Shown one piece after another: positions 130 to 42,387 of a stretch of DNA of 58,012 nt. The stretch is from a candidate division WOR-3 bacterium (lineage in GTDB: Bacteria > SDB-A): assembly GCA_016926475.1 (NCBI GenBank), contig JAFGON010000071.1:1-58012 (forward strand). Reading direction: 5' to 3'. A program made the translations under genes and the position numbers. A model generated the notes under the pieces. That model was not told the origin of the DNA. It saw only the letters and a list, made by a program, of their open reading frames with translations, and did not search any database. The number at the start of each line of letters is the position of its first letter. Position 1 is the first letter of the stretch.

Positions 130-502
130 CATACTTCTCGCCCTTGACAACGCGGACACTTACATCAGGGAGTTGTCAAACGAAAAGTGCATGGCAAAGC
201 TCAAGGAAATCGGGATGAACCTCGACGTAAGAACCATAAGCAACTTCGAAAAAGTCAAAGACAAATTATTTAAAAAACTGCCCTCTGAACTGATGAGAGA
301 ATACCAAAGGCTGATGAAAAAATACAGAGATGATTTCATACCGAGGGCGATAGTTCCCGTAAGAGAGGAAAGAGGAGAAGGTTATTGCGTAGCTTGTTCG
401 AGCAGAGTTCCCGCCGAAGTCTTCCAAAGACTTAAAAACCATGGTTCAATCGAACGATGCGAAAATTGCGCGAGGTTTATCTTCTGGCCCCCTCTTCCCT
501 GA
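113..502 (+). CDS. small C4-type zinc-ribbon protein (zf-RING_7/DUF164 tail)
   Basis: About 129 residues. The C-terminal third carries a CxxC (YCVAC) and about 22 residues later a second CxxC followed by ARFIFW, the layout of the C4 zinc-ribbon tail of DUF164 proteins (usually about 240 residues with a long N-terminal coiled coil). Here the coiled coil is very short, so the protein is a reduced version. Three in-frame ATGs (95, 107, 113) are possible; none has a clear Shine-Dalgarno, and 113 gives the most family-like N terminus (MNEQLDILLALDN). Its last 26 bases overlap the convergent gene on the other strand. Role unknown; family members are thought to bind nucleic acid. Confidence 0.65.
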   Translation: MNEQLDILLALDNADTYIRELSNEKCMAKLKEIGMNLDVRTISNFEKVKDKLFKKLPSELMREYQRLMKKYRDDFIPRAIVPVREERGEGYCVACSSRVPAEVFQRLKNHGSIERCENCARFIFWPPLP

Positions 503-1466
503 GTCGTTCCATACCAATTTTGATCATTTCTTTGTAACCCAGTATAGACAATATGTCTCTTGCATCGTCCAGAACTAAAAATTCCGCGCTTCCCCTCGCT
601 TGTATAACATCGGAAAGATTCTTCGGAGTGTGGCCTTTTACGGTTATCCAATTAGAATCCGCGATTATCATGTCGAAGTTATGGAGTTGGGGTAAAGATT
701 GGGAGAAGACTCCGTATTCTGATCTAAGAACCAGGTACCCTTGAAAATCCGCGGTAGCAGTTAACCTGACCAAAAACTTTTCCGCTTCGCTTTCGAGAAA
801 AGAATTCCACTCTTCTTCCGCTTCATTTGGCAGTTGATCCTTCCGGGGATCCAGATAATACTCCCTGCAGAACTCTGTCAAAGTGTATGCGTCGTAGGAC
901 TTGACGCCGAAAGGGTAAGCGAAGCCTGATAATACGATACCAGAGTAATAGTAATTCGCCGAAACAACATTCATCAACATATACAAAAGGTCGTTGTATT
1001 CTTGAATTGAAGGCGAAACATAATAGGCATCTACGTTAAAATTTTCTATCAATTCTTCTTTCGAAAATTCAGGCATTGCTTGGCCACGACTGTTTGTCAA
1101 AAATAGGCCCGGCCTTGAATTTATCAAATGAGACGGCGAGGTCGGTTTGTCCGATTTTGTCCAAATCCTGAAAAGGTCGAAATTGAAAAACACTAAAAGG
1201 TTTTTGAGCTTAGCGCAATAAACAACCTCTTCGAGAACATCGTAAGAAAAAGGGAAATCGAAGTAATCCGAAGGAAACAGGGTCTGTCCGTCTTTTAAAA
1301 CTTCAACCACGATCCCGTCAACACCGAGATCAGCTATTGAATCGACGAAAAATTGTACCGATTGGATTGGAATCTCTTCCTGACACACGAGCACAAAAAC
1401 CGCACTTTGGGACGACACGCTGAAAAAAAAGAGCCCCGCGAGAAATAGTAAAGTGGAAATTCTCAC
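477..1466 (-). CDS. secreted GHL10-like (family 10 glycosyl-hydrolase-like) protein
   Basis: About 329 residues. I chose the GTG at 1466 because it overlaps the upstream stop as GTGA and starts directly with a signal peptide (VRISTLLFLAGLFFF then SVSSQSA). Downstream are TIM-barrel-like segments (FVDSIADLGVDGIVVEVLKDG; YYYSGIVLSGFAYPFG) resembling GHL10/DUF187-type proteins. The assignment rests on the general pattern; no catalytic residues are claimed. It is the last gene of the ExbB/ExbD/AgmX operon, so it probably acts in the periplasm or outer membrane on glycan or envelope. The 3' end overlaps the convergent zinc-ribbon gene by 26 bp. Confidence 0.6.
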   Translation of the reverse strand: MRISTLLFLAGLFFFSVSSQSAVFVLVCQEEIPIQSVQFFVDSIADLGVDGIVVEVLKDGQTLFPSDYFDFPFSYDVLEEVVYCAKLKNLLVFFNFDLFRIWTKSDKPTSPSHLINSRPGLFLTNSRGQAMPEFSKEELIENFNVDAYYVSPSIQEYNDLLYMLMNVVSANYYYSGIVLSGFAYPFGVKSYDAYTLTEFCREYYLDPRKDQLPNEAEEEWNSFLESEAEKFLVRLTATADFQGYLVLRSEYGVFSQSLPQLHNFDMIIADSNWITVKGHTPKNLSDVIQARGSAEFLVLDDARDILSILGYKEMIKIGMERLREEGARR

Positions 1467-3313
1467 TGACTGTAGAAATTGAAAGGTACTGTGAAAGTAA
1501 ACGAACCTCCTCCAGGGTCGATCGCTCCAAAGCTCCATCCGCTTATAGCAGATATTATCTGCTGCTCAAGCGATGGCGAACCGAGGGTACTGCTGACCAG
1601 GGAAACGTTTGACACGAATCCTTCCTCGGAAATCGTTATTCTGACAACTATTTTCCCCTGAAGAGATGGATTTACCTCAAGTTCTTTTTCGTAAAAGTAT
1701 TTTAACCTTCCCTGGTACCTCACGATAGTTCTTCTTACGTCGGCCGCATCCCTCGCGCCCGATGTAGCTGCTGATCCGGTTAAATCCGCGATCGAACCGC
1801 CTCTGACTCCCGCGACCCTTTGGTGCTGCAGGTCTCCTCCAGTCGCAGTTCCGGTTGAAATCTCAGTCCCTCCAGTGACGCCAACTGTTCCCGTCACCCC
1901 ACCACCAAGACCTCCCGCGCCTCCGGCGGCTGAAGCGGCTCCACCAGAAACTCCGGAAAGAGAAGCTCCTCCTGCGAGAAGATCCTGTATGCTAGCGTCC
2001 CCTCCTCCCAGGCCCATGGGCCCCGTAGATGGTCCGGATCCTACTCCCAAAACCCTCAATCCTCTCGCCACTCTCGAGGTCTGCCCTCCTTGTCCGACAG
2101 ATCCTCCCGCGCCGCTGCCGCTGCCCGAGCCGCTTCCTGACCCAGAGCCAGAACCTGAGCCGTCGCCCTCACCAGTGCCCTCCCCTCCGGTTGTAACTCC
2201 CAGAGTGCCCCTTCTGAGGCTCTCGATGTCTTCGGACATGGAGACGTCGAGCAAGTCGCTTTCTTCGAGCCTTTTTAGAGTCTCTTCGGCTGTGGCAATA
2301 TCAATATTCATGGCTTGAACTTTGACAGTGTAGGCGTAAACCATCCATAGCAACCAAAATAAAACTACCGTGAAATCAAATATCACGAATTGCCGTCTGT
2401 CCTTTTCATCCTCTCCAACTGTAACCCTGTCATGCGGCCTGTTGTTAAACCTTCCCCACTTAGGTTTACCCGGCTCTTTTTCTATTTGTTGTTGTTTTTC
2501 TTCAGGCGGCGGAGGTGCCGCAAGTTCTTTTTGAACTTCTTTCGGGATTATTTCTTCTCTGACTCCGAGTCGGACAATGAAACTGTTTTTGTATTTAAGG
2601 TCCGCCCTGTCTCCCTGTGCGATGCTGAATTTTTTCTCTATTGTCCCGTCTTTGGCGAAAGTGTCTTCGTCGATTCTTATTCTTTCTCCGTTTTTATTTA
2701 AAACACCGATGAAACCCGGAGTTAAAGTTAGAAAGAATCCGCTCCCTGAATTTGAAAAAAGCCTTAATTCCCTTTCAAATGAAGCATCTTTTATCGCGGA
2801 GCGCGCTGTATTTCCGACGAGAAACACTTGATTTCTTTTGACTATATACTTTTTTAGACTCCCGCTCTTTATTACTTCTACCCAACCTAAGGAGGGAGCG
2901 GGGATATTCTCGGAAGTTTTTTTCTCGGAAGGTTTTGAGAAAGATTGAAATCCGTAACCTATTACCGTGGTTCCGACCTGAATTCTACCTCTGCTCGTCG
3001 GCTGCAGAGGAAGAATAACTTGATCGCCTTCTTTTCGGACTTTGGTTCTGAGAGCCAAATCTTTCACTGAAATTTCTTCTTCACCGATTTTCACCCAACC
3101 CCTGAAAACCTCCGGTTTGATGCACAACTCGTAAGAGTTGCTCAAACTGTTATAGGAAAAAAGAGTGTGCTTTTTTTCAAGGCCTTGTATGTCTTCTTGA
3201 AAAACTATCTCACAATCATCGCTCTTGCCTATGGTCACGAGATCTTTCTCGACGACGAAATGTCTCCGCTTGCCTTGCTGCTGAACAACTATTGCAAGTC
3301 TGATCTCTTCCAT
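1463..3313 (-). CDS. FHA-like / AgmX-type TonB-like energy transducer
   Basis: 616 residues. The N terminus (about 3-60) has an FHA-like start (VTIGKSDDCEIVF) and a second, more degenerate copy lies around 143-250. There is a proline-rich linker (PPPP near 267-270), one transmembrane helix at about 309-330, and a Gly/Ser-rich stretch (about 376-500, including an (SG)n run). The C terminus (about 525-616) is an AgmX/PglI-type TonB-like domain (GRLKYFYEKELEVNPSLQG, then IVVRITISEEGFV). This matches proteins that couple an ExbB/ExbD motor in the inner membrane to an outer-membrane partner; the motor genes lie directly upstream. Start ATG 3313 has a G-rich Shine-Dalgarno. The long SG linker probably spans the periplasm. 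Confidence 0.8.
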   Translation of the reverse strand: MEEIRLAIVVQQQGKRRHFVVEKDLVTIGKSDDCEIVFQEDIQGLEKKHTLFSYNSLSNSYELCIKPEVFRGWVKIGEEEISVKDLALRTKVRKEGDQVILPLQPTSRGRIQVGTTVIGYGFQSFSKPSEKKTSENIPAPSLGWVEVIKSGSLKKYIVKRNQVFLVGNTARSAIKDASFERELRLFSNSGSGFFLTLTPGFIGVLNKNGERIRIDEDTFAKDGTIEKKFSIAQGDRADLKYKNSFIVRLGVREEIIPKEVQKELAAPPPPEEKQQQIEKEPGKPKWGRFNNRPHDRVTVGEDEKDRRQFVIFDFTVVLFWLLWMVYAYTVKVQAMNIDIATAEETLKRLEESDLLDVSMSEDIESLRRGTLGVTTGGEGTGEGDGSGSGSGSGSGSGSGSGAGGSVGQGGQTSRVARGLRVLGVGSGPSTGPMGLGGGDASIQDLLAGGASLSGVSGGAASAAGGAGGLGGGVTGTVGVTGGTEISTGTATGGDLQHQRVAGVRGGSIADLTGSAATSGARDAADVRRTIVRYQGRLKYFYEKELEVNPSLQGKIVVRITISEEGFVSNVSLVSSTLGSPSLEQQIISAISGWSFGAIDPGGGSFTFTVPFNFYSQ

Positions 3314-3332
3314 ACCGCCCCCTTTTTAACCT

Positions 3333-3944
3333 TCAGAATTTAGGCGCTAAAACCATGACAGAAACTTTTTTGTAGCCTGCCATTGTGCACGTATTGACAA
3401 TTTGAGTGATTAAATTATAACTGACAAGGCTGTCCGCCTGAATTATGACCCTAACGGAATCAGGGTCAATCTGGTTTATTTCAGCGGTCTGAATTGCTAT
3501 TTCGTAAGTCTCTCTCAATTTGTCCAGTAGTAAAGGGATAAAAGTATCTGTTTTTACCGGCATCCCTTGGGCTGACTGTATTATTGAAGTCTGGTCTAGA
3601 GTTATCGAATAGCTGTTTGCCGTCACGACGTTGATTCCGACCATGGGTTTTTCGTCGAGCTCCTCTTCTGTGATAATGGACGGAAGGTTGACATCCATAG
3701 GCGGAGGGCTTTGATTCGGATCGGTGGAGAAATTCAGAAGAAGAAAGATCAGGATAATCGTGAACATATCTATAAGCGATGTCAATTGAAGAACAGGAGT
3801 TTCTCTTTGAGCTTTAGGTCCTTTTGAAGCGTTTGATGATTTCAAATTCGATATTGATTTTCTGAACATCATCTTTCTTTTTGTCGGGGGTTTCGGGAAC
3901 CATTTAAAAGTTTTCTCTTTGTTGTCTTGACCGTCTTGATTCAT
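3333..3944 (-). CDS. ExbD/TolR-family proton-channel protein (canonical Asp)
   Basis: About 203 residues. A basic cytoplasmic N terminus leads into one transmembrane helix with the family motif LTSLIDMFTIILIFLLL, whose Asp (residue 63 counted from the upstream ATG 3956) aligns with the proton-carrying Asp25 of E. coli ExbD. The rest is a periplasmic domain ending in a TolR-like beta/alpha fold. Two ATGs compete; GGAG six bases before ATG 3944 decides for the second. It follows the variant ExbD with almost no spacing and precedes the AgmX protein, so the three should form one complex with the ExbB upstream. Confidence 0.85.
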   Translation of the reverse strand: MNQDGQDNKEKTFKWFPKPPTKRKMMFRKSISNLKSSNASKGPKAQRETPVLQLTSLIDMFTIILIFLLLNFSTDPNQSPPPMDVNLPSIITEEELDEKPMVGINVVTANSYSITLDQTSIIQSAQGMPVKTDTFIPLLLDKLRETYEIAIQTAEINQIDPDSVRVIIQADSLVSYNLITQIVNTCTMAGYKKVSVMVLAPKF

Positions 3945-3957
3945 GCTTTTCTCCATT

Positions 3958-4635
3958 TTAAGAACCCGAAGGCCACCAAGGCGGAGGTTGAAGGTAGTTG
4001 TTTTGAAATCCTCTTTTCTGGGATATCTTCATAAAACTCACCAAATCGTTTAAATTGACTCTTTCCCCGCTCACTGCGTCTCCTATGCTGTCAACCGAAA
4101 TCAGGATAAAAAGATTCAGTCTGCTCACGACACTGTCCATGATCGCCTGATCTCCGGGGTTGTTTTTCAAAACAGTTTTAATCTCTCTCCAGTTAGGAGC
4201 TATGAACTGTTCCGGGGTAGTGTCGAGAAAAACTTTTACTTCCTTCTTTGCCTCGATGAAAAGGGAATCCAATTTCATACCTACAGCGCTTTCAGCTTGT
4301 GTCCACCCTTCAAAAAAATGGGTCTTTTCAATTAGAGTGTCAACGGCGATCGATTCTCCTCCGACGTATCTGTAACGGGACACTTCGCAAACAATTCTGT
4401 TGTCTTTGGTCCTCGCGAGAATGGTAGTCATAAAATAGGTTGGAGGAGGAAGATAGTTCTCGCCTGTGACGGCTCCAAGCCCAGCGAGTTCGAGATTGAG
4501 AATCGACGTTTGGACAATCTGAAAACTAGTCAGAAGAGCAGGTATGAGAATCATGAAAAGGTTTAAAATCGTCGTGACATCAACACCTCTTTGATGACGA
4601 GTTTTGCGGCTCGCCCTGGAAACTGCGAAAGACAT
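3958..4635 (-). CDS. variant ExbD-like protein with Asn in place of the channel Asp
   Basis: 225 residues with the ExbD layout: basic N terminus, one membrane helix, periplasmic domain. In the helix the motif reads VTTILNLFMILIPALL, so the position of the proton-binding Asp is Asn25 (codon AAC at 4563-4561). The periplasmic part is longer and ends in a Pro/Trp-rich tail (PPPWWPSG). In the ExbD family this Asp is needed for proton flow, so the subunit is inferred to be structural or regulatory and to pair with the normal ExbD encoded next. ATG 4635 follows the ExbB stop by three bases. Confidence 0.75.
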   Translation of the reverse strand: MSFAVSRASRKTRHQRGVDVTTILNLFMILIPALLTSFQIVQTSILNLELAGLGAVTGENYLPPPTYFMTTILARTKDNRIVCEVSRYRYVGGESIAVDTLIEKTHFFEGWTQAESAVGMKLDSLFIEAKKEVKVFLDTTPEQFIAPNWREIKTVLKNNPGDQAIMDSVVSRLNLFILISVDSIGDAVSGERVNLNDLVSFMKISQKRGFQNNYLQPPPWWPSGS

Positions 4636-4638
4636 CTA

Positions 4639-5259
4639 TCAGTCCTTTTTTATATCCTGCAACATATTCATTATTCTCACGGAGTATTCATCAATGTCGT
4701 CGACTATTCCATCCGCTTTTGACTGTAAAAAAGAATGGATCAGCATCAATGGAATGGCGACTGTCAAGCCGAAAAACGTGGTGTTCAGAGCGACGGAAAT
4801 ACCTTGAATAAGTTCGAGAGTTCTCGTAGAAGCACTTGCCGTCAACAACGCGCCGAATGATTTTAAAAGTCCGGCTATCGTTCCCAAAAGCCCCAAAAGG
4901 GTCGCCACTTGAGCGAGAACAGGAAGGTAGTTCAGCCTTCTGTTGATCCTGGGGATTTCCGCGAGACCGACTTCATCGACCGCGTTTTGCATTTCTCTGA
5001 TATCGCCTTTGTAATTTCTCAATCCGGCTCCGATAATTTTTGAAAGAGGTTTGCCCATTGAATCGCAGTACCTTATCGCTCCGTTGTAATCTCCGTCCCT
5101 GAGTTTCTTTGTCACGTTACGTAAAAAATTATCGGCGTTAATACTCGATTTGAAAAGAAATATTATTCTTTCGACTATCAGTCCGAGCGCGACTAATGCC
5201 ACAAGAGAAATAAAGTGCATAGCCCATCCGCCATTCTTATAAAATTGGATGAAAGCCAT
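4639..5259 (-). CDS. MotA/TolQ/ExbB proton-channel protein
   Basis: 206 residues with three membrane segments (about 11-36, 112-135, 153-178). The last two contain the family signatures GLLGTIAGLLKSFG and ALNTTFFGLTVAIPLML, including the conserved Thr positions facing the pore. Length fits TolQ/ExbB. A strong Shine-Dalgarno (GGAGGT) precedes ATG 5259. It is followed directly by two ExbD-like genes and an AgmX-type transducer, so it is the stator/motor of this envelope machine. Whether it powers import, export or motility cannot be told from sequence. Confidence 0.9.
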   Translation of the reverse strand: MAFIQFYKNGGWAMHFISLVALVALGLIVERIIFLFKSSINADNFLRNVTKKLRDGDYNGAIRYCDSMGKPLSKIIGAGLRNYKGDIREMQNAVDEVGLAEIPRINRRLNYLPVLAQVATLLGLLGTIAGLLKSFGALLTASASTRTLELIQGISVALNTTFFGLTVAIPLMLIHSFLQSKADGIVDDIDEYSVRIMNMLQDIKKD

Positions 5260-5283
5260 TAAACCGACCTCCTTTAAATTAAA

Positions 5284-5700
5284 TTACCTGCCAGACAAAT
5301 AAAATATTCCGGAAGTTATAAGAAAAGTTCCTCCGGCGATTAAGAAATAGGTGCTCGATTGCTCTTTCGAACTAAGAAGATAAACACCTGCTGCTGTCCC
5401 AGCCCCTCCCAGCAAAAGAAATGTTTTTGAATATGGTCTCGACACTCGGTGCCTGCCAAGCATTCCGAGTTCTGTCCTCGCCAAGAACACCTGGTCAAGA
5501 ATCTCTCGGGAAAAACTCTGAGATATAATGAAATTCGAAAAGTCAATTTTTGCCGTCGCGGCTATATTTATTACAAGAGGTTCCCTAGCCGTACCCTTTA
5601 TCTCAATTTCTTCGATCTGAAGAATGCTCGATGGTAGCTCCTGAGAAAAAATTGTGGCTGAGAACAAAAAAACAAGAGAAATAAACGACATCGCTTTCAT
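5284..5700 (-). CDS. small membrane protein of the ExbB/TPR operon, unknown function
   Basis: 138 residues with an N-terminal signal peptide (MKAMSFISLVFLFSATIFS, then QELP), a short extracytoplasmic segment containing IEIKGTAREPLVINI, and two C-terminal hydrophobic helices (TFLLLGGAGTAAGVYLL and FLIAGGTFLITSGIFYL). I recognise no family. It lies between the TPR lipoprotein and ExbB genes in the same operon, 22 bp after the former, so it is probably part of the same envelope complex. Confidence 0.6.
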   Translation of the reverse strand: MKAMSFISLVFLFSATIFSQELPSSILQIEEIEIKGTAREPLVINIAATAKIDFSNFIISQSFSREILDQVFLARTELGMLGRHRVSRPYSKTFLLLGGAGTAAGVYLLSSKEQSSTYFLIAGGTFLITSGIFYLSGR

Positions 5701-5722
5701 GCTTTAACTCTAAATTTCATCC

Positions 5723-8602
5723 TCATTGAGGTGTTGAATCCTGCAGAACATTCTCATGTTCGACTTCGTTAATATTATCATACAGTTCTTCGGGAAACAA
5801 ATCCGGTCTGAAATTTTTCAGATTTTCCAGTGCTTCCAAAGTCTGCCTATACCAGACATTGTCTATCAGACCATTGCCCTCAGCCGTGACTTTAGCGGCA
5901 TTGTAAAATTGAGCGGAAGCGTCTTCATAGGGCAGAGCCTGCTGTTCGAGTTGTTCTTGAAAATAAATCTGTTCTTCTTCTGTCCAAGCAGGATCGTACT
6001 CCGCCTCTCTGAATGCTCTCGCGTAGTCCTCGTTGCACTGACCGAGAAGGTATAGCGAAGCAATAGTTGATAGTCCGACTTTAAGGCTGGCTATCCTCGT
6101 CAGATAATCGGCGATTATTTTCATATCGGTATCGTATGGAGGAAAAGAGTTATCTATAGGCCAGTAAAGCTGGGTTCCTTTAACTTTTTCGAAATCGTAT
6201 TGGACGACATCTACCATATCCATCTCTATCTCGTAAGGAGTAATTCCTGCGGCAGCTCCTCCTTCAAGATAATCCTTTAATACCCTTCTCCTCACATTGT
6301 CCGCGTCCGATTGGAGTCCGAGGCTGTCCAAAGACATCGCCTGCCTGTGTAGTGCTTGATAGTGGATCTCTTCGGAAAAAGAAGTTCCCTCGGCAATTCT
6401 TCCGAATGCGATTTGGGCATCAGCAAAATTTTTAGCTCCGAAAAATGCCTTGCCTGTCCAAAAAACTGCTTCTCTTGTCCCTTCCGAAGCCGGATACTTC
6501 GCGATAAATGATTCCAAAGCCATCGCCGCTTCATTCCAGAGGCTTCTGCTTTCGGTGCCCGAGCTGTCGGCTCTCTCCGCGCGGGATATCGCTATGTTCG
6601 ATACATTCATGTAAGCAGAATACAGAAGGCTGTCTTCGAGATAATCATAATTTCTTATGTAGGAATTGAAAACCTGGACAGCTCTCGTTTCGTTTCCGGC
6701 GTTGAAAAATATAACGCCGGCGTTGAATAGAGCTTTTCTGCCTTCTTCACGGTCGGAGTATTTTGAGTGGACTTCTAAAAAAGACACGGCTTTCATAGTG
6801 TCTGTTTCGGTGGTGTTTGATGCCGATTGAAAAGCTATTATTGCCGCCTGCCTCATCAGAGTGGTATCGCTTGATTGGGAAGCGGCTTTCAAAAACCAGG
6901 TTTCAGATGAAGACAAATCTCCAAGGTTGTAATAGGTCTGAGCGACCATAGCCGAAGCTGAAGCCGAGGCTTCAGACGTCGGAAAATCTTCTACGACTTT
7001 TTTGTACCAATACATCGCTTCTTCGTATCTTTGGGCTTCGTATAAAATTTTCCCTATCGACATCGAAATGTTGACAGGGTCAGAAACTTCTGTCCCTGGC
7101 TTATTGTCCCATATTTCCATGTATCTTGTCGCGGCGGCGATCATGCTGTCCTGCCTCTCCGATGAAGCGCTGTCCTGCGAATACCACTGGTTAATAGAGG
7201 TCACCGCTTCGTAAGCCGCCGTCAAAGCCAAAGTGTCGTTTGTCTCATCCAGGGCTACCATAGAGTAACTTTTAGCAGCTTCGAGAAATTTTCCCATTTC
7301 ATAATTTGCTTCGGCATAGGCAAATCGAAGCCCGTAAACCTCGGGATCTTCAGGATACTGTTCCATGAAATTAGCGTACCTCTGCGCCGCCGTAGCCCAT
7401 TCTTCGTACGTACCCTCCTGAAGGGCTTTTCTGTGGTGTATACCCGCAGTGTACAACATAGCTTCTCTTATCAGGGAATCGGTTGAAGAGATTTGAGACG
7501 AGTCTCCGCTGCTGGACAGATTAGTCTGCCAATCAGCACCGTAGTTTTCAACGAGCCTGTCCATTGTTGCGTCCGCAAGAGTCATATCGCCGACTTCCGC
7601 GTAGAGAGAAGCGAGGTCCCTTAGAACAAATGGAGCTTTAGGGCTTCTCGGATACATGCTCAGATATGTGTTGTAAGCTTCTATCGCCTTGCTGTAATCA
7701 ACCTTATCCTTAAAAGTTTCGGCAAGTTTCAGGACAATTTCGTCGCCTTTGGGCATCTCCGAAAGCTCTGTCAAAACCCGCTGCAACCTCACAATACCGT
7801 TGGGCAATTCCGAAAAATCAAAACCGAGATACATGACGGCTTCATCGGCGAGCTCTGTTTTGCCCTCTTCCTCGGACATCTCGAGCAAAAACAAAAAATG
7901 CGTAATGGAAGCTGGTATTGAATCCGGACTGACTACCCTGTTAAGCCAGCCGATCATGTAAATAGCTTTATCGTAGTTGGGGTCATTCGGGTATTCGAGA
8001 ACTTTCCTGAAATAATCTATGGCCAAGTCAATTTTACCGAAACCTTCATGACGGAAATTGAAATAGTAAAGCCCCAGCCTGAAACAAGCCGCGGGTACTC
8101 TCGAGCTTCCGGGGTATCTCTCGACAAGCTTTCTGTACATTATACTGGCCGAATCCAAATTCCCCTCTTCTTCGAGGATAGAAGCGAGAGCGTAATAAGA
8201 TTCTATCGCTGAAACTGTGTCTATTCCCTCGTATTTGTTTATGACCTGAAGGTACGCATTTTTCGCCTTATCGTAAACCGGAAAAGGTTCAGACCCTGTA
8301 AAACCCCTGTCAATCCATTCGTCAATTTTATTTTCATACTCGTTTTTGGCTCTGATCCTGTATATCTCAGCAAGTCTCAGCGCGGCATCAGCTCCAAAAG
8401 GATTGTTAGGATATAGACCGATTAAGTTTTCCAAATATAGAACCGTTGCGTCCATATACTCTTCTTGAAGGTCTTCAAGTTCAGCTCTCTCACTCTCCAG
8501 TCGCAACAATTCTGACTCTGGATCGAGCCTTCCCGGGCCGCATGAAAACAAGATCAAAACCGAAACAAAAATTAAGGGCGAAAAAATCTGTTTCGAATTC
8601 AT
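5723..8602 (-). CDS. large TPR lipoprotein
   Basis: 959 residues. The N terminus is a lipoprotein signal with lipobox LFSC (Cys near residue 21). The body is a long run of tetratricopeptide-type helical hairpins of the YbgF/BamD kind, with repeated aromatic/Ala patterns (YYNLGDLSSSETWF; FFNAGNETRAVQVFNSYI). Such proteins scaffold envelope complexes, and this one probably sits in the outer-membrane inner leaflet facing the ExbB/ExbD motor encoded downstream. Start ATG 8602 has GAGGAAG upstream. No catalytic domain is visible. Confidence 0.8.
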   Translation of the reverse strand: MNSKQIFSPLIFVSVLILFSCGPGRLDPESELLRLESERAELEDLQEEYMDATVLYLENLIGLYPNNPFGADAALRLAEIYRIRAKNEYENKIDEWIDRGFTGSEPFPVYDKAKNAYLQVINKYEGIDTVSAIESYYALASILEEEGNLDSASIMYRKLVERYPGSSRVPAACFRLGLYYFNFRHEGFGKIDLAIDYFRKVLEYPNDPNYDKAIYMIGWLNRVVSPDSIPASITHFLFLLEMSEEEGKTELADEAVMYLGFDFSELPNGIVRLQRVLTELSEMPKGDEIVLKLAETFKDKVDYSKAIEAYNTYLSMYPRSPKAPFVLRDLASLYAEVGDMTLADATMDRLVENYGADWQTNLSSSGDSSQISSTDSLIREAMLYTAGIHHRKALQEGTYEEWATAAQRYANFMEQYPEDPEVYGLRFAYAEANYEMGKFLEAAKSYSMVALDETNDTLALTAAYEAVTSINQWYSQDSASSERQDSMIAAATRYMEIWDNKPGTEVSDPVNISMSIGKILYEAQRYEEAMYWYKKVVEDFPTSEASASASAMVAQTYYNLGDLSSSETWFLKAASQSSDTTLMRQAAIIAFQSASNTTETDTMKAVSFLEVHSKYSDREEGRKALFNAGVIFFNAGNETRAVQVFNSYIRNYDYLEDSLLYSAYMNVSNIAISRAERADSSGTESRSLWNEAAMALESFIAKYPASEGTREAVFWTGKAFFGAKNFADAQIAFGRIAEGTSFSEEIHYQALHRQAMSLDSLGLQSDADNVRRRVLKDYLEGGAAAGITPYEIEMDMVDVVQYDFEKVKGTQLYWPIDNSFPPYDTDMKIIADYLTRIASLKVGLSTIASLYLLGQCNEDYARAFREAEYDPAWTEEEQIYFQEQLEQQALPYEDASAQFYNAAKVTAEGNGLIDNVWYRQTLEALENLKNFRPDLFPEELYDNINEVEHENVLQDSTPQ

Positions 8603-8614
8603 CTTAAAACTTCC

Positions 8615-10147
8615 TCAAAGCGAATCCTGGAGTTGTGTCTGAAGGGTTTGAATTCTCGATTTGATCTCAGACAGACGGTATTCTACGTCTTTGTACATCA
8701 TGAAAAAAGTTACACCCGCGCCATACTGTGCCTGAATAAGCCAGTTTGTCGTCTCTGTAATGCCTTTTAAGCCTATTTGATTTTCAATATCCGCAAGCGT
8801 CATTGAGATGCCCGTCAATTTGAACCTGATGCTGTCGAGCGCTCCGGAATATGTAACAGGGAGCTTGGTCTCGAGATAGTCAAGGTCCATAAGCAACAAG
8901 TCTGTTTTCGCTCTCTCCTCCTGAACCATCAGTGTTATATTTCTCTTGAGGGCTTCCAAATCGGCTTTTTCGGAGGGGTTTATCTGAAAACCGATTGAAT
9001 GAAGGACATCCTGCTGAAATCTTAGATTTGATTTTATACGTTCCAAACTGTCGGCGATATCGTTTCTGCCCCTCACTCTCGAAAGAGCTATCAAATTCTC
9101 AAGACTGTTTTCCAGATTTCTGGTGGCCTGAACGTCTTCGATCACTTCAGATGAAAGAGCGTTTTCGTAGGCCGCGGCCAAAACGTTTTCATAGTCGTAA
9201 TCGCTGGAGTAGCTTTTAAGAATGTCGGAATATATGTCGAAAGTTTTTTCGTAGGACTCCATCTGGATTAAAATTGCTGCTTTTGCGAGCTTAACGTCCG
9301 TCGTCATCCTTCCAATGTCTTCTCGTCTTTCAAGGTCCTCTATTATTTCCATCGCTTCTTCGAGCAGACCAACTTTTATGTATATCCATGCGATTCCGAA
9401 ATCAGCAGCGTTAGGATCCGCCCCTTTTTTCTTTGCAAGTTCATAAAATTCAAAAGAGGTCTGCAGCTCGCCTATTTCATAGTGAAGCTGGGCAAGGCTC
9501 ATCAGAGCTCTCGCCTTCCATCCATCGGGTATGTATCCTGAATAGATACCGAAAGCCATTTCGTTGAGTTTTTCTTTAGCCAGGGATATCCCTTCCTCGT
9601 TCTTGTTTTCTTGAAAATAGGAAATGGCGTTAATGTAAAGCGCGAAAGGAAACTGCGGTGATGAATAGGAAATCATCGAACAATATTCTCTGGTTTTTTG
9701 AAATTCAGCCCTGGAAAAATAGCAAAGGCCGAGTATCAGGTACACATTGTCGGAAAATTCGCTTCCGGGATAAATCTCAAGGAATTCGCTCGATTTTTCT
9801 ATGCTCTCATCGTAGCTGGACTGTTGGTATGAAATTACACAATACATATACATGGCTCTTCTTTTCAGGCTGTCGGGGGACATAAAATGCTTGTATATGT
9901 TCTGGTAGGTGATCTTAGCCCAACCCAAGGCGCCCATGAGGTAAAGAGAATCGGCAGCTCTTATGGGAGGAGGTGTTTCAACAGCTTCCCTCAAGTTCTC
10001 TACCTCTTTGTAAAGTTCCTCGAGAACCTGCCTTTCGTATGATATTTCCCTTTTTACCGAATCAGTTACTTGATAGATTTCATCAGTAGAGAGTTCAGTC
10101 GTCGGTTCTTGCGACAACAGAATTATAACAAAAATAAGAGAGAGCAT
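8615..10147 (-). CDS. periplasmic TPR/coiled-coil protein
   Basis: 510 residues. The signal peptide is short (MLSLIFVIILLSQEP). A coiled-coil segment follows (about 35-55), then TPR-like hairpins (for example SEFSDNVYLILGLCYFSRAEF and AKAAILIQMESYEKTFDIY), and the C-terminal 130 residues are again predicted helical/coiled (ERAKTDLLLMDLDYLETKL; SEIKSRIQTLQTQLQDSL). GAGGAG before ATG 10147 fixes the start. It is the second gene of the operon and probably a scaffold partner of the large TPR lipoprotein. No enzymatic motif seen. Confidence 0.75.
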   Translation of the reverse strand: MLSLIFVIILLSQEPTTELSTDEIYQVTDSVKREISYERQVLEELYKEVENLREAVETPPPIRAADSLYLMGALGWAKITYQNIYKHFMSPDSLKRRAMYMYCVISYQQSSYDESIEKSSEFLEIYPGSEFSDNVYLILGLCYFSRAEFQKTREYCSMISYSSPQFPFALYINAISYFQENKNEEGISLAKEKLNEMAFGIYSGYIPDGWKARALMSLAQLHYEIGELQTSFEFYELAKKKGADPNAADFGIAWIYIKVGLLEEAMEIIEDLERREDIGRMTTDVKLAKAAILIQMESYEKTFDIYSDILKSYSSDYDYENVLAAAYENALSSEVIEDVQATRNLENSLENLIALSRVRGRNDIADSLERIKSNLRFQQDVLHSIGFQINPSEKADLEALKRNITLMVQEERAKTDLLLMDLDYLETKLPVTYSGALDSIRFKLTGISMTLADIENQIGLKGITETTNWLIQAQYGAGVTFFMMYKDVEYRLSEIKSRIQTLQTQLQDSL

Positions 10148-10159
10148 CCCGGCTCCTCG

Positions 10160-11089
10160 TCACTGACTTTCTTCGAGAATTCTGCGGAGTCTTTCTAGTT
10201 CCCTTTCAGCTTCTTCTCTTTGCCGTCTTATTTCTTCAAGTTCTCTCTGGTAATTGCTCATGATTTCGAGTTCCCTCTGTCTTCTCACTGAAAGAGCCCT
10301 GCTTCCAAAGAAAGGTCCGAAATTGAGCTGTACCCCCATGACGATTTTTTGTTGTTCTGTCGGACAATTCCTCGCCACATAATTCACCCCGAAAGTCTGT
10401 TCAATTTCAAGCCAGCCTATCAAAAATTCGATATTGTCGTTTGCTCTGTACATAGACGCGAAGTTCCAATCTTTACCGTCCATGTCGCTTATAAACTTGA
10501 AATTTTTAATAGGCCTGTACTCAATGCTGGCGAAAATTCCTCTCAACGGTTCAGATCTGGGTCTTTCCCCCAAAAATCTTCCGCTGCCCAAACCAAAAGA
10601 GAGTATGACAGGAATGCTTGGAAAATAGTAGGTCAAGTCCTTGGTGAAAACCCCATAAAAAGAAAAGTTCTGGTTGTGATCGTAATAGTCCAGCGAATGT
10701 CTCCCAAATTCCGACATTTTTTCATAAGGAGAAATATTCTGAATACCGAGGGCAAAAGCCGGATACCTTTCAGTCTCCCTTAAAACTCGGACTTTAGCGA
10801 AAGCTGACCAGACATCCGTACCGAGATATCCTCCACCGACTTCAACCCAGTCGTAAAGTCCCACTGAGAGGTTTGCGCCGAAAACATATTGGGAAAATGT
10901 TTCATAACTTGCTCCGTAACGTATGAAGTCCTGGCTGTAAACGGTAAAAACAGAAGTAATCTGAACGCTTGAATGCGGCATCAAATAAGCATTTGGGGCA
11001 TCAATATAATTACCCTGCAAAAATGGAGTGCAGTACAAAGATAAGCTGTATGTAAAAAAAACTGTCGCCAAAAAAAGCGTTCTCTTCAT
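10160..11089 (-). CDS. outer-membrane beta-barrel protein with C-terminal coiled coil
   Basis: 309 residues. Signal peptide (MKRTLFLATVFFTYSLSLYC), then alternating amphipathic strands typical of a small outer-membrane barrel (VQITSVFTVYSQDF; FKFISDMDGKDWNFASMY; KIVMGVQLNFGPFFG). It ends in an Arg/Glu-rich helix (about 265-309, for example RREEAERELERLRRILEE), which is unusual for a barrel and could reach into the periplasm to dock with the following TPR proteins. GGAGG six bases before ATG 11089. It is the first gene of the envelope operon. Family not recognised beyond 'outer-membrane beta-barrel'. Confidence 0.7.
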   Translation of the reverse strand: MKRTLFLATVFFTYSLSLYCTPFLQGNYIDAPNAYLMPHSSVQITSVFTVYSQDFIRYGASYETFSQYVFGANLSVGLYDWVEVGGGYLGTDVWSAFAKVRVLRETERYPAFALGIQNISPYEKMSEFGRHSLDYYDHNQNFSFYGVFTKDLTYYFPSIPVILSFGLGSGRFLGERPRSEPLRGIFASIEYRPIKNFKFISDMDGKDWNFASMYRANDNIEFLIGWLEIEQTFGVNYVARNCPTEQQKIVMGVQLNFGPFFGSRALSVRRQRELEIMSNYQRELEEIRRQREEAERELERLRRILEESQ

Positions 11090-11142
11090 AACATTCCTCC
11101 GAATCTTATGACTGAATTAGATCCCGATTCTCCAACATTCAA

Positions 11143-11171
11143 ATAATACTACCGCAAGCCGTAAAAATCAA
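11143..11171 (-). promoter_or_regulatory. sigma70-like promoter of the envelope operon
   Basis: On the minus strand TTGATT (11171-11166), a 17-bp spacer and TATTAT (11148-11143). Expected transcription start is near 11136, giving a leader of about 47 nt containing the GGAGG of the barrel gene. It is the only good promoter seen upstream of the nine-gene minus-strand operon. Confidence 0.6.
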
Positions 11172-11226: not shown

Positions 11227-12168
11227 TTAAAAAACTATTCTTCTCGCTTTGACAAAACGCGTTGAATAACTCTCTCTCTCCAAAGAACTGATAATAACCC
11301 CTCTGTTCCTGTAAGAAGAAGAGTGAATGAAGCGGCCAGATCCGAGATATATTCCAGCGTGTTTCGGGTCTTCGAAAATTAAAATATCCCCAGGCATCAA
11401 AGAGTCTTTCGGTGCTTCTATACCTGCGCTCTCCATATCGGTGACGGTTCTTGGCAAATCGATTCCGTTGTCAGCGTAGACTCTGTATACGAGTCCGCTG
11501 CAGTCAAAACCTCCTTCGCCTGTGGCTCCGTAGACGTAGGGTGACCCAAGGTATGATATGGCGCTGTTTAAAATAGATTGTATTAATTCGGTTTTGGCGG
11601 TATTCAAGACATTGTACACGTTGCCAGTTTCTGTCGCAGTATCAATTTGCTCCACAGCCCCCATTGAAGGTGCAGGGAACACAATCGACATATCGATTAC
11701 TATCGGTCGGGGCATCTTTTCCTCTGGAGGGACGATAATGTTCAAATTCACGGGTGGCCTGCTTTGTCCGGAATTGTTGTTCTGTGAAGGTGGCGGATAC
11801 CTGCCGGGTATCGCCAAGCGCTGTCCTTCTCTTATTAAATCCGAAGAAAGGCCGTTAGCTCTTTTTATTGCCTCCACTGTCGTCTCGAATCTGCGAGCCA
11901 AACCAGAGAGAGTCTCGCCGCTTTTGACGACATATAAATCCCCAGTCCCCGAAGAGTTAGAAGGAATCGACAATCTCTGACCCTCGACTATCATGTCCGA
12001 ACTCAAGTTGTTGGCATCCTTTATGCGCGAAACTGAAACTCCATACATTCTCGAAATAGAAGTCAAGGTTTCTCCAAGTTTGACAGTGTGGGTCAAACCA
12101 GTCAACACCTGGGTAATAACCGACGAAAAAAACGCAAACATTAATAGTGCTTTAAGTATGCTTTTCAA
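11227..12168 (-). CDS. LysM-LysM-NlpC/P60 peptidoglycan hydrolase
   Basis: About 313 residues. Signal peptide (MKSILKALLMFAFFSS), two LysM domains (HTVKLGETLTSISRMYGVS; YVVKSGETLSGLARRFETT), a proline-rich linker, and an NlpC/P60 domain with catalytic Cys in FDCSGLVYRVY and His in DPKHAGIYLG. It should cleave peptide stems of peptidoglycan in the periplasm. The start is the TTG at 12168, not the longer TTG at 12207: a GGAGG lies six bases before it and translation then opens with a proper signal peptide. It overlaps the asparaginase stop by 17 bp, so the two are probably coupled. Confidence 0.85.
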   Translation of the reverse strand: MKSILKALLMFAFFSSVITQVLTGLTHTVKLGETLTSISRMYGVSVSRIKDANNLSSDMIVEGQRLSIPSNSSGTGDLYVVKSGETLSGLARRFETTVEAIKRANGLSSDLIREGQRLAIPGRYPPPSQNNNSGQSRPPVNLNIIVPPEEKMPRPIVIDMSIVFPAPSMGAVEQIDTATETGNVYNVLNTAKTELIQSILNSAISYLGSPYVYGATGEGGFDCSGLVYRVYADNGIDLPRTVTDMESAGIEAPKDSLMPGDILIFEDPKHAGIYLGSGRFIHSSSYRNRGVIISSLERESYSTRFVKARRIVF

Positions 12169-13114
12169 AATAACCCTCCATTTTTTTTTCTTCAGATCCG
12201 AGAGCAAGCATCAGTTTTATTCTCGCCTTGTTAGCCCTTAAATTTCCCGCGAAAAAACAACCTAATCCGGCAAGATGCTTGCCTCCTCCATCATACCCGT
12301 AAGTCGGCGCGACTCTGCCGTTTTGAACCTTTGTGGAAACTACCACCGGAATACCTTTAAAGATAGCTTGGGAGATGCCTTCGATCATGGACGGCGGGAC
12401 ATTCCCTCTTCCCAAAGCCTCCAAAACTATTCCCCTTGCCCCTGAATTCACGGACTCTTTAATGAATCTTCCGTCAGATCCCGAGTAAGTAGGTATGATA
12501 TCCACGGGGATGACAGGCCCTTTTGTCGGGATATATTCTCTGTCAGTCGTCCGGGAAAAAAATATGACTTTTTCGTCTATAGTACCCATCAATCCATGTT
12601 CGGGGGAAGTAAAAGCAGCTAAATTTGACGTTGAAACTTTTACCACATCCCTTGGAGAAAAAATACTGTTGTTGATTACAACCATAACGCCTCTTTTACG
12701 AGAAGAATGGTTTAAAACAACTTTCACCGAATCAAATATGTTTCTCGGTCCATCTATTCCCAAATCCGGAGCCGCTCTCATGGCTGCTGTCAAAACGACT
12801 GGAACATCCCCTTCGTAGGTCAATGATAGAAAGAAAGCGGTTTCTTCCAGAGTGTCGGTTCCGTGAGTTATGATTATGCCATCACAATTGAGGGCGAGAG
12901 ATTTTATTCTGTTGGATATTCTCATCATGTCTTCAGGAGTTATCCAGGGGCTTGGGACATTTGAAAATTCGTCGAATTCGAGTTTGAAATCATCTTGTGG
13001 CAGATCAAATCCTTTGAAAACATCTTCTCCGAAAAAAGAAGGGACAATTCCGCGGTCTGCTTCTTTTTTCATCTGAATAGTGCCGCCCGTCGCCACAATG
13101 AAAATTTTTTTCAT
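12152..13114 (-). CDS. L-asparaginase (type I/II asparaginase-glutaminase family)
   Basis: 320 residues. It has both catalytic threonine signatures of the family: ATGGTI near residue 9-14 and THGTDTLEETA around 90. The C-terminal domain is complete (GNVPPSMIEGI and VVSTKVQNGRVAPTYGYDGGG). There is no signal peptide, so it is cytoplasmic and hydrolyses L-asparagine to aspartate and ammonia. ATGA overlap with the preceding regulator gene and 17-bp overlap with the hydrolase gene after it suggest an operon of functionally unrelated genes. Confidence 0.9.
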   Translation of the reverse strand: MKKIFIVATGGTIQMKKEADRGIVPSFFGEDVFKGFDLPQDDFKLEFDEFSNVPSPWITPEDMMRISNRIKSLALNCDGIIITHGTDTLEETAFFLSLTYEGDVPVVLTAAMRAAPDLGIDGPRNIFDSVKVVLNHSSRKRGVMVVINNSIFSPRDVVKVSTSNLAAFTSPEHGLMGTIDEKVIFFSRTTDREYIPTKGPVIPVDIIPTYSGSDGRFIKESVNSGARGIVLEALGRGNVPPSMIEGISQAIFKGIPVVVSTKVQNGRVAPTYGYDGGGKHLAGLGCFFAGNLRANKARIKLMLALGSEEKKMEGYFEKHT

Positions 13115-42314: not shown

Positions 42315-42387
42315 AGCCGATGGGCGGATTCGAACCGCCTACCCGCGCATTACGAATGCGCTGCTCTACCATCTGAGCTACACCGGC
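42315..42387 (-). tRNA. tRNA-Thr (anticodon CGT)
   Basis: 73-nt cloverleaf on the minus strand: acceptor GCCGGTG/CATCGGC, D stem GCTC/GAGC, anticodon stem GCGCA/TGCGC with loop TTCGTAA (CGT, reads ACG), T stem GGCGG/CCGCC with TTCGAAT loop, discriminator T. CCA is not encoded. A protein-coding frame begins immediately after it. Confidence 0.95.

Follow-up and report, generated by a model that had tools for sequence, protein, structure and literature searches.

A probable compact Agl-Glt/Nfs-class envelope machine of a candidate division WOR-3 bacterium, with an asparagine at the membrane aspartate site of its first ExbD protein

We have analysed a stretch of 58,012 nucleotides (contig JAFGON010000071.1 of assembly GCA_016926475.1, positions 1 to 58,012, hereafter "the window") from a candidate division WOR-3 bacterium (GTDB lineage Bacteria; SDB-A), which carries nine genes on its minus strand in the following order: an outer-membrane barrel, a tetratricopeptide repeat (TPR) protein, a TPR lipoprotein, a small protein, ExbB, two ExbD proteins, to which we refer as ExbD1 and ExbD2, an FHA-AgmX transducer and a GHL10-like protein. 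There is little doubt in our view that the locus belongs, in compact form, to the Agl-Glt/Nfs core complex class (PMC3169522, PMC3858216), a relationship that an earlier note on this DNA did not recognise. On balance, we consider it probable that these genes encode an envelope-spanning, proton-driven machine of this class, with a surface output and a motor in which only one of the two ExbD proteins would contribute a proton-carrying acid.

The nine genes are separated by gaps of 1-24 nt and, at the end of the operon, by one overlap of 4 nt, and the other three family genomes (loci L063, L064 and L065) have them in the same order, which is thus intact in 4/4 family genomes; the reading of the earlier note, that nine genes in this order form one operon, is borne out by the common strand, the tight packing and the three relatives. 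GTDB contigs have been scanned with an ExbB profile, yielding 80 named loci; with the loci of the genome search, about 100 have been tabulated. The series TPR-small-ExbB-ExbD1-ExbD2-AgmX recurs in KSB1, Calditrichota, Fibrobacterota, Nitrospirota, Nitrospinota, Myxococcota, Gammaproteobacteria and others, the small gene being undetected in some loci. Since the genes are clustered, not scattered, both in the family relatives and across phyla, the idea of a single machine, also put forward in the earlier note, holds, and we regard it as highly likely that the nine genes work as one. Pfam and NCBIfam models recognise ExbB, ExbD2, the TPRs and the AgmX/PglI-TonB end, with GHL10 at threshold level; promoter and terminator scans of the locus returned matches at chance level.

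The core complex has been described as aglRQS with gltC, D, E and G, accompanied by one additional clustered gene outside the Myxococcales and Bdellovibrionales (Luciano 2011, PMC3169522). The window has the corresponding parts in one cluster: an ExbB/AglR-type channel, followed by two ExbD/TolR-type proteins; a GltG-type transducer composed of FHA, one transmembrane (TM) helix and an AgmX/PglI TonB-like end; TPR proteins in the places of GltC and GltD, the GltC model matching weakly; and an additional small gene before ExbB, as in the non-myxobacterial core complexes. The motor order is orthologous to that of Myxococcus AglRQS, which operates with Glt (gliding) or Nfs (spore coat) and a GltG/NfsG-type transducer. 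The pore threonines are conserved in the window's ExbB, which groups with Fibrobacter and KSB1 sequences in the ExbB tree (set support 97). In contrast to the Agl-Glt/Nfs core complex, the window has a tailed barrel, a degenerate GHL10, an NlpC/P60 gene and tandem FHA folds, and it has no separate operon gene for the GltE lipoprotein, which many other core complexes encode separately: a hidden Markov model (HMM) built from GltE-position genes found none in the operon, and the GltE-model matches elsewhere in the genome lie far below the cut-off.

The same core parts, together with the AgmX/GltG-like transducer, would also suit a gliding-motility machine like the Myxococcus Agl-Glt. Gliding is very unlikely, because the gliding-specific (Group A) CglE/GltH-type family (NF033755), present in the myxobacterial genome G031, has no match in any of the four family genomes; moreover, the operon has no GltE-like lipoprotein, the GltG model matches over the C-terminal part of the transducer only, and the core by itself is, according to Luciano 2011 (PMC3169522), unlikely to power motility.

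The genome of the window also has a complete tolQ-tolR-tolA-tolB-pal-ybgF locus (contig C55) and, on contig C47, an ExbB-ExbD-ExbD-TonB series beside a TonB-dependent-receptor-like gene; given these separate loci, the operon encodes a third motor, the ExbB of which is about 30-34% identical to its counterparts in the other two. With Tol-Pal (TolQRA-TolB-Pal-CpoB) it shares the 5:2-type motor family, a TonB/TolA-like C-terminal domain and YbgF-type TPRs, but it has two ExbD genes and neither TolB nor Pal, both of which are found on C55; a Tol-Pal identity has been rejected on these grounds. With ExbB-ExbD-TonB it shares the motor family and the TonB-type C-terminal domain, but it has cytoplasmic FHA domains, no TonB-dependent receptor in the operon and, in the TM helix of the transducer, no histidine of the SHLS type that characterises TonB and TolA (PMC12204202), and classical TonB has likewise been rejected, as the earlier note had anticipated for both systems. 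An energiser of the Tol/TonB type, specialised for outer-membrane biogenesis or for secretion or nutrient uptake by way of the barrel, would be consistent with the presence of barrel and motor in one operon, with the TonB-type domain and with the adjoining LysM-NlpC gene; we consider it improbable, given a barrel that has neither a plug domain nor a TonB-dependent-receptor family match (Pfam, NCBIfam), the missing histidine, the Tol-Pal and TonB loci already at hand, and a TPR-rich scaffold that is unlike Ton or Tol.

The distinctive feature of the motor is located in its ExbD pair. In ExbD/TolR/MotB proteins, protons are carried on an aspartate of the membrane helix. The window's ExbD1, which has no Pfam ExbD match, has Asn25 at this site, while ExbD2 has the membrane Asp in every surveyed locus where the residue is readable. 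The residues have been read from HMM-anchored columns, and the ExbD1 site is Asn in 70, Ser in 8, Ala in 1 and Asp in 20 of the 99 readable loci, which are counted as loci and not as independent events, near-duplicates being included (the window's genus; L065 and L111 are the same contig). A proline occurs downstream of the site, within the helix, in 79/79 of the Asn, Ser and Ala loci and in 0/20 of the Asp loci; in a control with a broader regular expression, some rows that have no proline were scored as Asn but by eye have an upstream Asp, and these were kept out of the counts. The Asp-type loci are the myxobacterial AglRQS and its close kin, Bdellovibrionota, an adjacent Myxococcota metagenome-assembled genome, two Gemmatimonas and one further genome; the Asn of the window is common to most non-myxobacterial core complexes. 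Ser or Ala is found, with the proline kept, in L113, L132, L136, L143, L153, L172, L175, L077 and L130. It seems from this distribution that the acid as such is avoided at the ExbD1 site.

The ExbD2 sequences fall into a single clade that is separate from every ExbD1 (support 99), and the two are therefore ancient paralogues; on the ExbB tree, the Asp/Asn distribution needs four changes, one origin is possible, and either state may be the older. In the myxobacterial first-position ExbD, the Asp is located at residue 27-32 (e.g. D28 in L081), matching D28 of AglQ. Replacement of this residue in M. xanthus (aglQ D28N) abolishes conductance, motility and sporulation (PMC3858216). Judged by aligned position, the non-Asp members of the family naturally carry the change that is lethal to the Myxococcus motor, most of them with Asn at the AglQ position; Myxococcus differs in having the membrane Asp in both AglQ and AglS, and in an AglQ that has no in-helix proline. 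No report of this acid-loss pattern has been found in the open-access literature, to which the search was confined, subscription papers lying outside it; the pattern across the core-complex family is the new point here, the core complex itself being already published.

We tentatively propose, at a little under an even chance, that the ExbB pentamer holds a one-acid heterodimer of ExbD1 and ExbD2. For the motor class as a whole, we put forward with the same reserve, just short of even, that the ExbD pair is an obligate heterodimer, in which one partner binds protons on its Asp and the other is Pro-kinked and permanently neutral. Alternatively, the motor proper may consist of ExbB and a homodimer of ExbD2, and so have two Asp; the Asn-type ExbD1, with a membrane helix of its own, would then be an anchor or regulator that is not part of the pore. 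ExbD2 by itself has all the usual motor residues, and the periplasmic domain of the window's ExbD1 has diverged past Pfam recognition, both of which fit a homodimer; ExbD1 nevertheless keeps the same helix and N-terminal motif and is located between ExbB and ExbD2 in nearly all loci, the conservation of a polar Asn in its Pro-kinked helix points to a function within the channel, and its myxobacterial counterpart AglQ requires its Asp (PMC3858216). The homodimer thus appears unlikely, if the strongest of the alternatives that we have weighed.

Table 1. Genes of the operon and the adjoining gene, with the evidence for each.
Feature	Position in the window	Strand	Evidence
Outer-membrane beta-barrel, C-terminal helical tail	10160..11089	-	AlphaFold2, Foldseek, profile match
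Periplasmic TPR protein, GltC-like at low score	8615..10147	-	Sub-threshold Pfam TPR, NF033756
Large TPR lipoprotein, GltD-position scaffold	5723..8602	-	Lipobox ..LFSC, TPR/YbgF repeats
Small conserved protein, signal peptide	5284..5700	-	HMM built in this analysis
ExbB/TolQ-like proton channel, AglR position	4639..5259	-	PF01618 E 1e-24
ExbD1, AglQ position, Asn25 replacing membrane Asp, in-helix Pro	3958..4635	-	ILNLFMILIP
ExbD2, AglS position, membrane Asp63 kept	3333..3956	-	PF02472 E 2e-13
FHA-FHA-TM-GS-TonB force transducer	1463..3313	-	NF033768 E 5e-23, TIGR01352, AlphaFold2/Foldseek
GHL10-like protein, signal peptide, probably pseudo-enzyme	477..1466	-	PF02638 at threshold
LysM-NlpC/P60 peptidoglycan endopeptidase, probable tenth part	11227..12207	-	NlpC/LysM family matches

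The transducer (Table 1) consists of two FHA folds (residues 1-125 and 141-253), a TM helix at about 308-330, a stalk rich in Gly and Ser (374-521) and an AgmX/PglI TonB-type C-terminal domain (522-616). Its relationship to AgmX, seen by the earlier note, is confirmed by the NF033768 match, while its FHA call found no support in Pfam but agrees with the AlphaFold2 model, where both beta-sandwich domains match many solved FHA domains (Foldseek, prob up to 1.00, E about 5e-3 to 7e-2). The GltG model covers only the C-terminal part of the protein, and the score is below the NF033760 equivalog cut-off (68 of 650 bits). Between genera, part of the stalk (404-521, window 1750-2104) shows 84% identity and the FHA domains 41-46%, and this low-complexity segment is therefore no random linker. 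A sequence search of the PDB with the AgmX alignment returned mainly artificial GS linkers and a weak HasB match. Further proteins with an AgmX/PglI tail, with no motor adjoining, occur elsewhere in the window's genome (L061, 8967-10253, and L062, 9581-10015); these could be alternative transducers for the same motor.

At the other end of the machine, the barrel is modelled with about 12 strands, followed by a C-terminal helix of 46 residues (residues 263-308; AlphaFold2, mean predicted local distance difference test (pLDDT) 53.7, tail 68-90), and the model is matched by outer-membrane porins, OmpG, FapF and a designed 12-strand barrel (Foldseek). A profile comparison with hhalign (probability 91%, E 1e-6) relates it, over its tail as well, to the barrels encoded at the corresponding place of the operon in seven loci of KSB1/Calditrichota. 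The gene starts at 11089, and not at 11171 as the earlier note had it; 11171 corresponds to a promoter-like match that is no commoner than in shuffles. The periplasmic TPR protein, matched by the NF033756 GltC model far under its cut-off (20 bits, E 2e-4), has a counterpart at the equal position in KSB1/Calditrichota loci, and about 70 of the surveyed loci have a homologue of the TPR lipoprotein, immediately before the small gene and ExbB; an identification as PorW of the type IX secretion system has been rejected, the link being a weak TPR cross-match.

The window's copy of the small protein has an EIEIKGTAREP motif and scores above the cut-off of no Pfam or NCBIfam model; in the window's family, it also has a C-terminal hydrophobic hairpin. 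With our HMM, homologues that immediately precede ExbB have been detected in about 50 loci from many phyla, with a family motif like EI.G...KP; a single one of these loci is of the Asp-type ExbD1, and its match is weak. By its position and distribution, the small protein is very probably the unnamed additional core gene of Luciano 2011.

GHL10, as named in the earlier note, has its Pfam match, exactly at the cut-off (27.9 bits), but not the Asp-rich motif of the DigH/GHL10 peptidoglycan glycosidases: DGIxFDFVRYP in the genome's other GHL10 reads SGIVLSGFAYP here. Since this motif (DGIxFDxxRYP) is lost in all four family copies, an active hydrolase has been rejected, and the protein is probably a catalytically dead, glycan-binding relic, if the motif Asp is catalytic, as we assume. 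A PDB sequence search with the GHL10 alignment gave no meaningful match. The start at GTG 1466 is favoured over 1538 and is the most likely one, given that the homologues of both L063 and L065 begin in the same way, 4 nt inside the AgmX stop. Upstream of the barrel, a LysM-NlpC/P60 gene is conserved in L063 and L064 and has a homologue directly upstream of the barrel in the KSB1 loci L144 and L168; as two KSB1 loci have DUF58 and LysM-NlpC/P60 there, in nearly the arrangement of the window, this gene probably belongs to the cassette, and the nine genes of the earlier note are real but probably leave out this tenth. Away from the operon, a tRNA gene is located at 42315-42387 on the minus strand, and the overlapping open reading frame that starts MKKAGVAQMVEQRIRNARVGGSNPP is a false translation of it.

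In the mechanism that we propose, the ExbB pentamer would hold ExbD1 (Asn25) and ExbD2 (Asp63), and the single Asp of ExbD2 would be the proton crossing site. The motion of the motor would pass to the FHA-FHA-TM protein, the Gly/Ser stalk of which would span the periplasm; AglR is known to bind both GltG and NfsG (PMC3169522, PMC3858216). The TonB-like domain would dock on the TPR scaffold, which may be tied to the barrel through the TPR lipoprotein and the helical tail of the barrel, while NlpC/P60 would open the peptidoglycan and the pseudo-GHL10 may bind glycan. The output would be a force on the outer membrane or the surface, most likely one that moves or positions a surface polymer or adhesin.

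This choice of cargo follows from two observations: a Wza-type polysaccharide export gene, named from its sequence, occurs downstream of the core genes, with a barrel before it, in 11 loci outside the window's family, and the polymer that Agl-Nfs moves on spores is exported by Wza (PMC3858216). We accordingly lean, with less assurance than for the heterodimer, towards a surface polymer or an adhesin that the machine would move or position, and a functional link of the motor class to exopolysaccharide is possible. The Wza-linked loci are L066, L068, L129, L130, L146, L155, L156, L157, L170, L172 and L178, five of which also have a Wzc-like protein.

Several points weigh against the machine as we have drawn it. 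The Wza link is limited to the 11 loci, mostly Myxococcota-like, and does not extend to the window; the periplasmic part of ExbD1 is very divergent, and ExbD1 may lie outside the pore and serve as a structural protein; the TM helix of the transducer, FVIFDFTVVLFWLLWMVYAYTV, has no His; both structure models, of the barrel and of the transducer, have a mean pLDDT near 52-54; and no experiment on any core complex outside Myxococcus has been found in the literature.

In one review, it is called not known if AglR works with AglQ-AglS heterodimers or with homodimers of these proteins (PMC9389320), and a hand-over-hand mechanism based on AglQ and AglS has been proposed in another (PMC9120999). A family in which one of the two ExbD proteins keeps the acid makes this question directly testable, the Asn-type ExbD1 being the natural counterpart of the dead aglQ D28N mutant. 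If the one-acid motor is real, it would be expected either to need half as many protons for each turn (about 72 degrees per proton) or to perform a rocking motion in place of rotation, and the AglQ of myxobacteria and Bdellovibrio would stand apart by carrying a second acid. The core complex, the function of which has been called unknown outside the Myxococcales, is here extended to another uncultured lineage, and the extension adds a barrel that recurs in the KSB1/Calditrichota copies and, in some others, a link to Wza polysaccharide export.

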